From NCBI GenBank assembly GCA_001051155.2, contig JYIP02000006.1, forward strand, positions 3,844,001-3,908,000: a DNA stretch of 64,000 nucleotides, read 5' to 3'. Positions 6,047 through 59,790 of this stretch are shown here, piece after piece; positions within the stretch are counted from its first letter, which is position 1, and every line of letters starts with the position of its first letter. This DNA is from Chrysoporthe austroafricana (lineage: Eukaryota; Ascomycota; Sordariomycetes; Diaporthales; Cryphonectriaceae). The position numbers and the translations under genes are program-made. The notes under the pieces are model-generated. The model did no database searches, was not told the DNA's origin, and saw nothing but the letters and a program-made list of their open reading frames with translations.

Positions 6047-8176
6047 ATGGCGGATGAGGATATCGCCAGTCACTATCAGGTCCTGGAGGAGCTGGGCCGT
6101 GAGTTTTCACCCGTTTTTACACTTCCAGCCCTTGATCATGTGGGCGCCATGGCTGACCTGACGGCCCCAACTAGGTGGCAGCTTCGGCGTGGTGTACAAG
6201 GGCATCGAGAAGGCGACAGGCGAGGTGGTCGCCATCAAACACGTAGGGCACACTCCAGCCGCCCCCTCATCTCCCGCGTGAGCAGAGACACTGACAGCCG
6301 CCAGATCGACCTCGAGTCCAGCGATGATGACATCCTGGAGATCCAGCAGGAGATCTCGGTCCTCAGCACGTGCGCGAGCCCCTTTGTCACCCAGTACAAG
6401 GCGAGCTTCCTGCGAGGGCACAAGCTATGGATCGTCATGGAGTTCCTGGGCGGAGGCTCGTGTCTCGACCTGGTCCGTCCGCCCTGTTCCCCCCAAACCC
6501 CCCGGCGCTGCCTTCGCATGCTAACCCTGCCGCAGCTGAAAGCCGGCAATTTCGAGGAGGCCAATATCGCCATCATCTGCCGCGAGCTGCTGCTGGGTCT
6601 TGAGTACCTCCACGCCGAGGGCAAGATCCACCGCGACATCAAGGCCGCCAACGTCCTGCTGGCAGAGAACGGCAAGGTGAAGCTGGCGGACTTCGGCGTC
6701 GCCGCGCAGCTCACCAACATCAAGTCCCAGCGGAACACCTTTGTCGGCACGCCGTTCTGGATGGCACCCGAGGTCATTGAGCAGGCCGGCTACGGCTTCA
6801 AGGCCGACATCTGGTCGCTGGCGATTACGGCGATGGAGATGGCCAACGGAGAGCCCCCGCTGGCCAACATCCATCCGATGAAGGTCCTCTTCCACATCCC
6901 CAAGAACCCCCCTCCCAGGCTCGAGGGCCCCTTCAGCAAGTACTTCAAGGACTTCGTGGCTCGGTGTCTGAGCAAGGACCCCGACATGCGGCCGACCGCG
7001 AAGGAGCTCCTGAAGCACAAGTTCATCTCGGGCGCGGGTAACGTGGACGCCCTGCAGGAGCTCATCGACCGCAAGCACATGTTCGACGCCCAGCAGACCA
7101 GGAGGCTGCACCCCGTCTACTACCAAGAGACCCTGCAGACCCTTTCGCACAAGGACGAGTCAGAGGAGTGGACTTTCGACACGGTGAAGTCCGTCGTTCC
7201 GCCTCCTCCGCCACCGCCCAAGGACGCTCCCAAGAAGCGTAACCCGTCACCCACGGCAGAGGACGCTGCGATGCGGAAGGTAGACCCCAACGAGGCGCCG
7301 CTGATCGAGGTGTCGCCTCCGCCTACCACTATGCGAAAGACCACAGTGCGGCAGGTTTCAGGCTTACTCGAGCGACGCCGCTCGATCGTGCAGGTCGATG
7401 TCAACGGCTCGCCGCGGTCGTCGGTCATCGCCCGCCAGCCCCTGCAGATGGACATGTCGTACGGTAACATGGGCTCTTCTGCACGCCCCTTCAGCCGCGT
7501 CCCGTCTGGTGACTCGGAGTCGTCCGGGCAATCGACCAGCACGTCCACTTCCGGCGAGTCGAATGCCGAAAACCGCGATCCTCGAAAGCAGCCTTCCCCA
7601 CGCACGCTCTCAAGCAAGGAGGCAGTGCTTGGCCACAGGCTGTACACCAAGGCCCTCGAGCCCACGCTGGCGGAGGCCTTCGCGCAGACTTCCGGCACCA
7701 AGAAGCGAGAGGCGCTGGCTCAGCTGTCCGACGCTTTCGAGAACCTCGATCTGGTCGACCCCGAGGGCGCCTACCAGCTGATGCAGGGCCTCGTCGCCGC
7801 CATGGCGAAGGACAGGAAGCTCGCACCGGCCATCATGAGGAGCCCGGTCCTGCAGAAGGCGCCGGAGGGCTTTACCTACGGGACCGTCATCAACATGAAC
7901 AAGCAGCTCTCCGCGCCCAACAGCCCCGCGAGGGCCGCCAACCGCAGGCGCCGAGACAGCACAGTGCCCGAGAGCGCCCCGGCCACGCCGTCCAAGGGCG
8001 GCAAGTCGGACGAGACCAGGCTGCGCGATCTCGAGAAGGCCGCGCTCGAGGCGCGCTTCCCGGGCCGCGAGGCCGTGCCCGGCATGGAGCACTGCAAGCA
8101 GCTGTCTGAGCAGCTGTACAGCCGCTGGGCCGGCAACCTGCAGGCGCGCTGGCCTAGCGTTGCGAGTGGCCACTGA
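6047..8176 (+). CDS. Ste20-family protein kinase, GCK-III type (Sid1/Nak1/MST3-like)
   Basis: Exons are 6047-6098, 6175-6242, 6305-6472 and 6536-8176, giving 642 residues. Introns 1 and 2 are required to rebuild the glycine loop. The N-terminal kinase domain has [12 protein letters not shown] (16-27), the VAIK lysine (Lys39), HRDIKAAN (128-135), DFG (148-150), activation-loop Thr168 in GTPFWMAPE, and APE (173-175). [19 protein letters not shown] and [11 protein letters not shown] are typical of the germinal-centre kinase III group (fungal Sid1, Nak1/Kic1 and MST-1; animal MST3/4). These act in the septation-initiation and morphogenesis (RAM) networks. A Pro/Ser-rich linker leads to a helical C-terminal segment ([19 protein letters not shown]). 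The third intron has a GTCCGT donor with a good gctaac branch. Which fungal paralogue (Sid1 or Nak1-like) it is cannot be settled by eye. Confidence 0.9.
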
Positions 8177-56625: not shown

Positions 56626-58641
56626 ATGCGTTTCCAGGTCGCGGCCAGCGTCGCGCTGCTGCAGCTCCAGAGCTGCTTGGCGGCGCCCGCGTCCACCGCG
56701 TCGAACGGTGAGATCGACAAGATCCTCAAGAACCTCAACCTGACCCACGACCCCCTCCTGGCTTGTCCCGCTATCGCCCGAAGGGGCCTCAAGATGCAGG
56801 GCTGTCCCACGGAACATCTGCCCGGCGAGACCTTGCCCAAGACGACGATCGGAATTCCGTTGGAGGATGGCGTGGACACCACCGCCTCGACCGCATCCAA
56901 GCGCTGCGTCTACCGGAGAGAGGACGGTATCGACTTCACCACAGACTGCCCAGAACCCGTAAGCTGTGGCAAATACGGGACTATGTGTGACATCGCCAAG
57001 CGCTGCGTCTTCGCGAGGGTGGACGGCACAGAGTTCAATTCAGACTGCCCGGTAGCGATTGACAACTACTGCACCGACAAAGGGATCTGTACCGAGAAGA
57101 GAGACCTTGCCCCGGGTGAGGAAAAGAGGTGCGTCTACCGCAGGGAGAACATGGAGGACATGTTCGGCCCGTGTCCAGTACCTGAGGGAGAGATCATCGC
57201 CAAGCGCTACAACATCTTTCCCGGCGTGAACATCTCTCCTGCCTCGGGAGGCGTGGTCAACAACCGCATCGGCTCCGCCACGACTGACAAGATCGCCCGG
57301 TCCTCGGGCCTGTCGTCCATCTTCGACGAGTGTGGACTGCTCGCCCGCAGGGGCGAAGAGCTCCCCAAGCGGTGCTTCCTCGGAGTTGGCCCCGAGATCC
57401 CCAACAAGGTCCCTCTCGACCTTGATAAGACCGCCACGGCCTCGAGCAAGAGAAGCGCATTCTCAGGCCTGTCCGACATCCCCTGTGCGATCGCCCGCAG
57501 GAGGGGCGATGAGCTCCCCAAGCGGTGCTTACTCGAGGAGCCCACCAGGATCCCTAGCGAAATTGCGAAGGATATCGAGGACTTGGACAAGAGGAGCGTA
57601 CCCTCAGGCCTGTCCAAGATCTGGAATGACTGTGACGCGATCGCCCGCAGGGGCGATGAGCTCCCCAAGCGGTGCTTCCTCGGACTTGGCCCCGAGATCG
57701 CCAACAAGATCCCTCTCGACGTTGACGGGACCGCCACGGCCTCGAGCAAGAGGAGCCAATTCTCAGGCCTGTCCAACATCTGGAAGGACTGTGACATGAT
57801 CGCCCGCAGGGGCGACGAGCTCCCCAAGCGGTGCTTCCTCGGACTTGGCCCCGAGATCTCCAGCGTCCCTGTTGACCTTGACAAGACCACCACGACCTCG
57901 AGCAAGAGGAGCGCATTCTCAGGCCTGCCCCACTTGTGGGGTGGCTGTCCAGAGATCGCCCGCAGGGGCGAGGAGCTCCCCAAGCGGTGCTTGATGGAAA
58001 CCTTCCCTGACATTGACGAGACCGCCACGGCCTCGGGCAAGAGGAGCTTATCCTCACACCTGCCCACCACGTGGGGTGGTGAGTGTGACATCATGCTCCG
58101 CAGGGGCGAGGAGCTCCCCAAGCGGTGCATGATCGGCGAACTCGAGCCCGAGATCTCCAGCGTCCCCCTTGACCTCGACAAGACCACCACGACCTCGAGC
58201 AAGAGGAGCACAACCTCGGGCCTGGCCAGCCTCTTCAGCAACTGCGGCGAGATAGCCCGCAGGGGCGAGGAGCTCCCCAAGCGCTGCTTCCTGGGACACG
58301 GCCCGGTGGTGTTTCACGGCAACGAGCTCCCCGACACCATGATGGGCGCGGGGGGCGCGGCGGAGGCCAAGAGAGGTCACCACGAGGCCAAGAGGCCGAA
58401 TGGGATCGAGACGCCGATGGCCAAGCACCCCGCCAAGACCCAGCAGATGGGCGCCAGGTCATCGATGACGCCCGGATGGATGACCACGTCCGAGGGGTAT
58501 TCGCACTGCCCCATCATCGCCCGCCGGGGAGATATGGTCTACAGGAGGTGCGCGTCGGAAGAACTTCTACAGGATCAGGAGAATATGGTGCCGAAGCAGA
58601 ATGCCGCGACTCTGCTAGGGCTTCCAGCCCAGGGGCTCTGA
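56626..58641 (+). CDS. Secreted Kex2-type repeat precursor (KEP-like), novel peptides
   Basis: A single exon encodes 671 residues. A signal peptide (1-20, MRFQVAASVALLQLQSCLAA) leads to a propeptide ending in Lys-Arg at 92-93. Three Cys-rich modules follow (94-126, 127-159, 169-194), starting CVYRRED, CVFARVD and CVYRREN. From about 225 to 553, two peptide types alternate, each ended by Lys-Arg. Type A is SxxSGLxxIWxDCxxIARRG followed by DELPKR (seven copies). Type B starts with Cys (CFLGLGPEI...) and ends in TATASSKR or a variant (seven copies). The element Cys-x2-Ile-Ala-Arg-Arg-Gly, or a close variant, occurs nine times including one before and one after the array. Lys-Arg and Arg-Arg are Kex2 sites, so the secretory pathway should cut this into many small peptides. 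No tailoring oxidase (UstY-type) or tyrosinase gene is within the window. I do not recognise the peptides. Confidence 0.85.
   Translation: MRFQVAASVALLQLQSCLAAPASTASNGEIDKILKNLNLTHDPLLACPAIARRGLKMQGCPTEHLPGETLPKTTIGIPLEDGVDTTASTASKRCVYRREDGIDFTTDCPEPVSCGKYGTMCDIAKRCVFARVDGTEFNSDCPVAIDNYCTDKGICTEKRDLAPGEEKRCVYRRENMEDMFGPCPVPEGEIIAKRYNIFPGVNISPASGGVVNNRIGSATTDKIARSSGLSSIFDECGLLARRGEELPKRCFLGVGPEIPNKVPLDLDKTATASSKRSAFSGLSDIPCAIARRRGDELPKRCLLEEPTRIPSEIAKDIEDLDKRSVPSGLSKIWNDCDAIARRGDELPKRCFLGLGPEIANKIPLDVDGTATASSKRSQFSGLSNIWKDCDMIARRGDELPKRCFLGLGPEISSVPVDLDKTTTTSSKRSAFSGLPHLWGGCPEIARRGEELPKRCLMETFPDIDETATASGKRSLSSHLPTTWGGECDIMLRRGEELPKRCMIGELEPEISSVPLDLDKTTTTSSKRSTTSGLASLFSNCGEIARRGEELPKRCFLGHGPVVFHGNELPDTMMGAGGAAEAKRGHHEAKRPNGIETPMAKHPAKTQQMGARSSMTPGWMTTSEGYSHCPIIARRGDMVYRRCASEELLQDQENMVPKQNAATLLGLPAQGL
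57313..58290. repeat. Coding tandem repeat of the precursor gene, about 155 bp per unit
   Basis: The DNA for the RRG-D/E-ELPKRC segment is nearly invariant. CGCAGGGGCGA plus GAGCTCCCCAAGCG starts near 57347, 57495 (with a 3-bp insertion), 57647, 57806, 57961, 58099 and 58259. Unit length varies from about 138 to 160 bp because the flanking peptide parts differ. Confidence 0.9.
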
Positions 58642-58971
58642 ATGGAACTCGAGCAGAAGCCCCACGAGGCTGGGGACTGTCCCGTCGTCGCTGGCAGTGC
58701 TAGACAACACGGGCGCAAGAGTGGGTCAATCACAAGCCGGTGCAAGAATTAGCTGGAGTATCACGTAACACCCGCCTTGTGTATTCCGAACATGGGCTCT
58801 ACAGAAGGGCCTCAAGCCAATATCTTCAGGGCACACATCGCTGCTGGAGACATGTCGCGCTAAGGACTCCCAAAGGCGCGGCTGTACCTAGCGGCGTTGT
58901 ACGTCACCACTCAGCTCACGTAACAATGATGATTTTCCTTTTGTGTCGCACATACAGCGCCCTAAGTAGCA
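58642..58971. other. Intergenic region, precursor / 2H phosphoesterase
   Basis: 330 bp between two genes on the same strand, less GC-rich than either. No distinctive element was seen. Confidence 0.4.
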
Positions 58972-59790
58972 ATGGCCCGCCGTGATCTTATAAGTCGTCT
59001 CTGCTATAGTAGTTCCGTGGCAGCCTCGCGCTCGCACCCAGTGCTGCCGATAATGCAGGGCACGCCCAGGCCGGCAGCTCCCACCTGGGCAGCCGTGACC
59101 GCGCGACACTTATCCGCACAGCCTCGAGCCACCGCCGCCCGACGATTTCATGGCCCGCCGGCGTCAGGCACAGACACGAGCGCCCGGGCCCGCGCGAGAC
59201 GGTCTCCCTCCCCACACCACCGCCCGCGCGCGTCGCCCGCCGGCGAGGACGTGTACGTCCTCACCCTGCTCACGGACCGGGCCCACCACGCGCGGATGAC
59301 GGCCCTGCGCAGGAGGTACTTCCCGGCGCGGCTCAACAAGCCCAGCGCGCACCTCACGCTCTTCCACGCCCTGCCGGCCCGCCGGCTGGGCTCCTCCGTC
59401 GTCCCCGCGCTGGAGCGCGCCACCGCGCAGACGGCCCCCTTCGCGGTCCGCGCCACTGGGCCGTTCCGCCTGAGGAAGGGCATCGCGGTCTCTCTTGCCG
59501 CGGACGAGGGGGGCGGGCGGGCGGCAGGCGTCCGCCGGGCGCTGCAGGAGGCTTGGAGGCGGGAGGGCTGGCTGAGTGAGCAGGATGCTGGGGGGTGGAA
59601 GGGCCACTACACGATCATGAACAAGGTCGATGACGAGACTGAGGTTGAACGGGCGCTGGAGGATGTGAAGAGCGGGTGGAGGGATGATGTCGGGACGGCC
59701 GAGGGACTCGGGCTGTGGAGGTATGAGAGGGGTTGGTGGGTGTGGGAGAGGAAATTTGCCTTCACTGGTAGCCAGGTCGGTGGACGATAG
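58972..59790 (+). CDS. 2H phosphoesterase superfamily protein (2'-5' RNA ligase-like)
   Basis: A single exon encodes 272 residues. Two HxT motifs define the 2H fold: HLTLFHALP with His127 and Thr129, and GHYTIMNKV with His212 and Thr214, separated by 85 residues. The conserved GEDVYVLTLLTD strand opens the domain near residue 91, and the C-terminus GLWRYERGWWVWERKFAF is usual for fungal members. Such enzymes act on 2',3'-cyclic or 2'-5' phosphodiester bonds in RNA or nucleotides. The substrate here is unknown. The first 90 residues are Arg/Ser/Ala-rich and without acidic residues at the very start, so they may be a mitochondrial presequence, or the real start may be the ATG at 59053. Confidence 0.82.
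   Translation: MARRDLISRLCYSSSVAASRSHPVLPIMQGTPRPAAPTWAAVTARHLSAQPRATAARRFHGPPASGTDTSARARARRSPSPHHRPRASPAGEDVYVLTLLTDRAHHARMTALRRRYFPARLNKPSAHLTLFHALPARRLGSSVVPALERATAQTAPFAVRATGPFRLRKGIAVSLAADEGGGRAAGVRRALQEAWRREGWLSEQDAGGWKGHYTIMNKVDDETEVERALEDVKSGWRDDVGTAEGLGLWRYERGWWVWERKFAFTGSQVGGR

Follow-up and report, generated by a model that had tools for sequence, protein, structure and literature searches.

Proinsulin is the precursor of a two-chain peptide, and its connecting piece, which lies between dibasic sites, is removed after the disulfides have formed. The core of dikaritins contains tyrosine. Fungal KEP proteins are defined by a signal peptide, repeats and Kex2 sites (PMC6339444). In the yeast killer toxin K1, as described in PMC13211469, processing by Kex2 yields an alpha and a beta chain with one disulfide between them, a bond that is likely made before the cut. 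Alpha-type pheromone precursors carry a repeated core of the WCxxGxxCW type, and the hybrid precursor HPP1 has three (LI)GC(TS)VM copies and a CAAX end (PMC3068285). Kex2 favours an aliphatic residue at P4 and disfavours Asp at P3, according to PMC8528282, and cleavage does not take place at every conserved KR: in Pry proteins the KR is likely left uncut in the native protein (PMC2515848).

Here, we analyse a precursor gene from Chrysoporthe austroafricana that shares with KEPs (PMC6339444, PMC7329392) the KR- and RR-bounded repeats and the packing of several repeats in one region, and that probably shares their signal peptide as well. With the ascomycete alpha-type and hybrid-type pheromone precursors, as presented in PMC3068285, it shares Kex2 sites and repeats; unlike the pheromone precursors, the segments in its family are diverse. 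We consider the chances about even that each repeat is a cassette for two-chain, disulfide-linked peptides in a secreted precursor of KEP type.

Results

Architecture of the precursor

The gene is real, and is found in a single copy in the 48.15-Mb host genome (22 contigs). It lies in a stretch of 64,000 nucleotides, referred to below as the window, and consists of one exon, open over 671 codons from an ATG start (Table 1). A preliminary description had listed a signal peptide, more than fifteen Lys-Arg sites and an A-B-A-B array, and the sites and the array hold on closer analysis. The hydrophobic N-terminal stretch MRFQVAASVALLQLQSCLAAPAS is signal-like as judged by eye and probably serves as a signal peptide, and the relatives start in a similar way. 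KR sites number 20, whereas 10,000 shuffles of the residues gave 2.9 on average and 10 at most; there are also 12 RR pairs. Seven modules of 45–56 residues (A, loop, and B) alternate over residues 226–583, with A and B forms as described, and the DNA repeats agree with the modules (spacing 138–159 nt; the last step of repeat family D4 is 264).

The KEP definition calls for a signal peptide in a protein other than a membrane protein, for which the stretch judged by eye is the candidate, and for peptide release by Kex2, of which a homologue is encoded in the genome. Cleavage at KR and RR should leave four or more fragments, which the 20 KR and 12 RR pairs provide, and at least three similar fragments should cover at least 15% of the protein, which the seven modules provide by our count rather than through the pipeline of the authors. 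A KEP-like precursor in which two segments alternate, as proposed in the preliminary description, is well supported.

Table 1. Features of the precursor gene, with positions in the window
Feature	Position	Strand	Remark
Whole precursor ORF, 671 aa, single exon	56626..58641	+	Alignment with homologue P0001 starts at the signal peptide
Probable signal peptide, approximately residues 1–20	56626..56685	+	By eye; relatives begin alike
N-terminal Cys loop CPAIARRGLKMQGC, residues 47–60, one dibasic site	56764..56805	+	Similar loop in P0001, P0005, P0006, and P0007
KR-bounded 33-residue 4-Cys unit CVYRREDG..., residues 94–126	56905..57003	+	
KR-bounded 33-residue 4-Cys unit CVFARVDG..., residues 127–159; first loop without dibasic pair	57004..57102	+	
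KR-bounded 2-Cys unit CVYRRENM..., residues 169–194	57130..57207	+	
Module 1, residues 226–276: A part, loop 57331–57375, B part; no dibasic site immediately before A	57301..57453	+	
Module 2, residues 277–323, loop 57484–57528	57454..57594	+	
Module 3, residues 324–376, loop 57631–57675	57595..57753	+	
Module 4, residues 377–428, loop 57790–57834	57754..57909	+	
Module 5, residues 429–473, loop 57946–57990	57910..58044	+	
Module 6, residues 474–527, loop 58084–58128	58045..58206	+	
Module 7, residues 528–583, loop 58243–58287	58207..58374	+	
C-terminal Cys loop CPIIARRGDMVYRRC, residues 628–642, last cassette copy	58507..58551	+	Repeat family D4; compare the C-terminal CPIIDRR loop in P0002–P0004

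Because no dibasic site directly precedes the A part of module 1, its A chain could be longer than the module boundary indicates. The three units at 56905–57207 start with Cys directly after KR. Four Cys are present in both the first and the second, and the units would form a class of their own among the small Cys-rich products.

Relatives and genomic surroundings

In protein database searches, where alignments were scored for the 7991–7995 candidates sharing most words, a homologue was found in Cryphonectria parasitica, M406DRAFT_349617 (P0001; 481 aa, annotated as hypothetical, E 3.7e-98). P0002 also came from the first database search, and alignment searches added P0003–P0008 and then P0009; P0008 was not recovered in the last alignment search. 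P0006 and P0007 look 5'-truncated. All family counts given below cover ten proteins, i.e., the window precursor and P0001–P0009. P0001 resembles the precursor in having a signal, three Cys-rich units, and four A/B-type modules, but it is shorter (481 compared with 671 aa), has fewer modules, and its gene model does not include the C-terminal loop. P0009 has no Cys cassette and seems to match via a different conserved stretch near the C-terminus. By eye, a second conserved stretch, [IV]VL[QR]PG[ME][ED]P[IV]DTP[TM][QH][IV]GDLTLHIG, follows KR or RR in P0002–P0007 and P0009, and is absent from the window protein and P0001; in P0009 it occurs without the cassette.

Genome protein searches with P0002 and P0005 matched only the precursor gene, i.e., they revealed no paralogue. 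A codon pattern for C-x2-I-A-R-R-G matched 19 places in the genome, compared with five for the reversed control pattern; six of the 19 are in the precursor gene, and the other 13 are in open frames with at most two KR. In the precursor, Pfam gave only sub-threshold matches (DUF7130, 0.0072, and PP_M1, 0.094, both below cut-offs). None was obtained for P0001, P0002, P0005, and P0008, the four of nine relatives that were scanned, and no precomputed Pfam match is listed for any relative. A PDB sequence search with the precursor returned no match up to E 1, and no killer toxin is among the matches listed in the Pfam, protein database or PDB sequence searches.

The Pfam scan of the neighbours covered 58 of the 106 open frames of at least 150 aa in the window, with the 25 commonest of 44 families listed, and the ten nearest frames were rescanned. 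Three of these ten have matches, namely to a mitochondrial carrier, an RRM, and a 2'-5' RNA ligase-like family. Beyond the window, ten of the 15 frames in the next 9.9 kb were scanned, and two have matches, to a kinase. The next gene downstream of the precursor, also on the plus strand, is 2'-5' RNA ligase-like (58966–59790; PF13563, 74.9 bits).

The genome has at least 50 matches to UstYa (DUF3328), 49 of them over the cut-off, as exon pieces. Some are clustered (for instance at 575–582 kb on contig C4 and 257–262 kb on contig C16), a hint of dikaritin-type clusters elsewhere in the genome. P_proprotein has one genomic match, on contig C21, in a Kex2 homologue with subtilase (Peptidase_S8) and P domains.

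Neighbouring cysteines frame the predicted cutting sites

A typical cassette has the form C-x2-I-A-R-R-G-[DE]-E-L-P-K-R-C, with Kex2-type sites between neighbouring Cys about 14 residues apart. The 14 segments of the array, seven of type A and seven of type B, have a single Cys apiece, and within every module the two are spaced by 14 across the predicted cut sites. Twelve Cys gaps in the precursor are exactly 14 (11 within pairs and one between), compared with 0.67 expected, and this number was reached in 0 of 20,000 random-placement trials; of the 108 gaps between successive Cys in the whole family, 38 have this length, 35 of them within and three between pairs. For the family counts, signal peptides were cut at positions chosen by eye, the first 81 residues being removed for P0009, and neighbouring Cys were assumed to pair in order. 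With signal ends set in this way, the number of Cys is even in all ten proteins, and 45 pairs spaced by 13–15 residues (41 distinct loops) occur in nine of them, P0009 having none; the gaps between pairs (n = 49) range from 1 to 107. Since repeats and orthologues are not independent, these counts overstate significance, and taken protein by protein the Cys spacing is non-significant in three of the ten (P0003, p 0.08; P0004, p 0.08; P0009, p 1.0).

KR or RR is present in 43 of the 45 paired loops, and the two loops without a dibasic pair (CVFARVDG... and CVMEREDG...) keep an aliphatic-x-x-R sequence. As a control, 58 other ORFs in the window have KR or RR in two of 24 Cys gaps of 13–15 residues, which is a rough figure because many such ORFs are non-coding. 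An L, I, V or M occupies P4 in 64 of the 69 in-loop dibasic sites, compared with 22 of the 79 outside loops, and while the residue varies from loop to loop (IARR, IVRR, LPKR, IPKR, FVVRR, FVAKR), its aliphatic class is mostly kept. Asp occurs at P3 in six in-loop sites. By the site pattern used, 22 of the 41 distinct loops have two cutting sites, so that some loops would be nicked once only.

The preliminary description had proposed two families of small secreted peptides. This is probably wrong: given one Cys in each segment and a spacing of 14 across the cut sites, a single disulfide-linked peptide with A and B as its two chains is the likelier product. LPKR/C, where A meets B, probably belongs to a Cys-framed cutting cassette and is no ordinary spacer.

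Conservation and predicted structure

Among modules 1–7 (21 pairs), the mean identity is 0.74 for the loop interior (0.62 without the dibasics), 0.38 for A, and 0.36 for B. For all 12 loops in the precursor (66 pairs), the values are 0.43 for the interior (0.34 without dibasics), 0.29 for A, and 0.24 for B, and when the precursor or P0001 is compared with the other relatives (500 pairs), they are 0.35 for the interior, 0.26 without the dibasic pairs, and 0.20 and 0.21 for the chains. Identities of 0.66 for the loop, 0.30 for A, and 0.28 for B came from loops chosen by their KR/RR end, which overstates the contrast, and the comparison of all 45 loops is preferred. Because the interior without dibasics is barely better kept than the chains at distance, it is mostly the Cys residues, their spacing, and the cutting sites that persist, which is what a device for the processing of variable payloads should show. 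In modules 1–7 taken by themselves, the data suit a conserved active loop equally. The GDELP sequence is well kept in these modules; all five residues of G[DE]ELP fall inside P4–P3' of one of the two sites, which may account for their conservation. The pN/pS ratio among modules is 2.12 for A (bootstrap 1.03–6.23), 0.91 for the loop, and 1.12 for B, values that we do not rely on since GC3 is 0.83, which can inflate the ratio, there are only seven units, and the copies may be homogenised.

The AlphaFold2 model of the full precursor is poor (mean pLDDT 43.9; 508 of 671 residues below 50). Block means of 70–79 are found at residues 31–60, 231–250, 331–350, and 391–400, which correspond to the loop at 47–60 and those of modules 1, 3, and 4, and modules 2, 5, 6, and 7 and the C-terminal loop are below 50. 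A single module modelled by itself has a mean pLDDT of 61.3, with a helix at residues 7–19 that runs through the first Cys to IARR. A fold search of a 53-residue module against the PDB gave no match with E <= 0.001.

Discussion

Proposed processing

In the processing route that we propose, the signal peptide would route the precursor into the ER, and the two Cys of each module, 14 residues apart, would join as a disulfide before any cutting takes place. In the Golgi, the Kex2 homologue would then cleave the loop behind IARR and LPKR and separate the modules behind SSKR. Removal of the basic residues from the ends would fall to a Kex1-type carboxypeptidase. GDELPKR would be excised in the manner of a C-peptide. 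The released module should consist of an A chain of 14–18 residues and a B chain of 17–28 residues that starts with Cys, with a single disulfide holding the two together. Seven such heterodimers, alike but not identical, would come from each precursor, together with Cys-rich units from nearer the N-terminus. Disulfide formation, in-loop cleavage, the joined product, and its function are all steps that we infer from the sequence. The Cys spacing, the even Cys numbers, the single Cys of each segment, the dibasic sites within the loops with their P4 residues, the conservation at distance, the Kex2 homologue, and the K1 precedent speak for this route. Against it stand the good conservation in modules 1–7 of GDELP, which would be discarded, the loops with fewer than two sites, the Asp at P3 of some sites, the poor AlphaFold2 model, the three proteins without significant spacing, and the observation that conserved KR sites elsewhere may escape cutting. 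As the chains vary while the cassette stays, our guess is that the products act as an extracellular signal, or as an effector or antagonist.

Alternative readings

The main rival to the two-chain reading is that Kex2 cuts between modules only (at SSKR and DSAKR), so that each module of about 45–56 residues would be a single chain, with the intact C..IARRGDELPKR..C loop as the active, receptor-binding part. The high identity of the loop relative to A and B in modules 1–7 is as this reading would have it, as are the AlphaFold2 confidence, which is highest at four loops, and the module helix from the first Cys to IARR; some loops also miss one of the two sites yet retain both Cys and the spacing. 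However, judged by P4 the in-loop sites are better Kex2 sites than those outside, no stable module fold is predicted, and at distance the loop interior without its dibasics is hardly better kept than the chains, and we regard an intact loop as unlikely. A classic KEP, from which A and B are released separately, each with a free or later-paired Cys, would account for the KR sites that bound both segments, and KEPs with two motifs are on record (77 of 1193 in PMC6339444). A fixed Cys spacing across the cut and an even number of Cys in all ten proteins would be unneeded if A and B were separate, and separate release appears quite improbable to us.

That the protein is not cleaved at all, but is a secreted or wall protein in which the dibasic sites provide charge or binding, is a very unlikely reading in our judgement. 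It would agree with conserved KR sites elsewhere that are sometimes left uncut, as reported in PMC2515848, and the peptide products of the precursor are predicted from its sequence, but the excess of KR over expectation and the P4 pattern argue against it, as do the mostly low-confidence model and a Pfam result without a domain over the cut-off. We assign the lowest probability, close to nil, to a dikaritin-type RiPP precursor with cores cyclised by UstYa proteins. The probable signal peptide, the repeats, and the Kex2 sites are compatible with such a precursor, and UstYa matches exist in the genome. The preliminary description had proposed a search for UstY-type genes beyond the window, and among the 50 UstYa matches listed for the genome none is on contig C19, which carries the precursor; residues 226–583 are devoid of Tyr, and the Pfam matches in the nearby frames and beyond the window are to the carrier, RRM, ligase-like, and kinase families given above. 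As for pheromones, the preliminary description had recognised no known core, in agreement with the motif searches: WCxxGxxCW occurs in none of the ten family proteins, nor does (LI)GC(TS)VM of the hybrid type, and the precursor ends in LPAQGL. With none of the listed UstYa matches on the contig, no Tyr in the modules, and no pheromone motif, the dikaritin and pheromone readings were set aside.

Implications

Returning to the reading of each repeat as a two-chain cassette, we tentatively suggest that the gene family encodes a tandem library of diversified, disulfide-linked two-chain peptides, with the connecting piece excised from a Cys-framed double Kex2 cassette. By analogy with other secreted-peptide families that combine constant processing signals with variable payloads, it is possible, at a similarly tentative level, that the cassette is held constant while the chains diversify. 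KEP mining as described in PMC6339444 cuts in silico at KR/RR and seeks repeated pieces, and would list A and B separately and miss their probable joining. If the cassette reading is true, one fungal gene can supply many two-chain peptides in an insulin-like way, more cases could come to light by searching for dibasic loops framed by Cys, and peptidomics after reduction would misassign such products.

Comparison with known systems

The terms "disulfide" and "disulfid-" are absent from the main texts of PMC6339444, PMC7329392, and PMC9769878, and no description of Cys-framed Kex2 cassettes in repeat precursors was found in the papers searched, whose supplementary tables may list the family. KEPs with two motifs being known already, what appears to be new in the precursor is the Cys-framed cutting cassette with its double site. 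Unlike in KEPs, the alternating segments of the precursor have single Cys 14 apart across the sites, and it is the Cys-framed cassette that forms the constant part. The precursor differs from proinsulin in having one predicted disulfide per module, a connecting piece of 5–7 residues, tandem repeats, and a fungal origin, and we claim no homology between the two. The likeness to the K1 and K28 killer toxin precursors, as far as these are described in PMC13211469, is that Kex2 excises a middle piece and leaves chains joined by disulfides, a route with which the pattern seen here is compatible, as a prediction only. K1 and K28 are single large toxins with folded subunits, whereas the precursor would offer many small cassettes in one chain.
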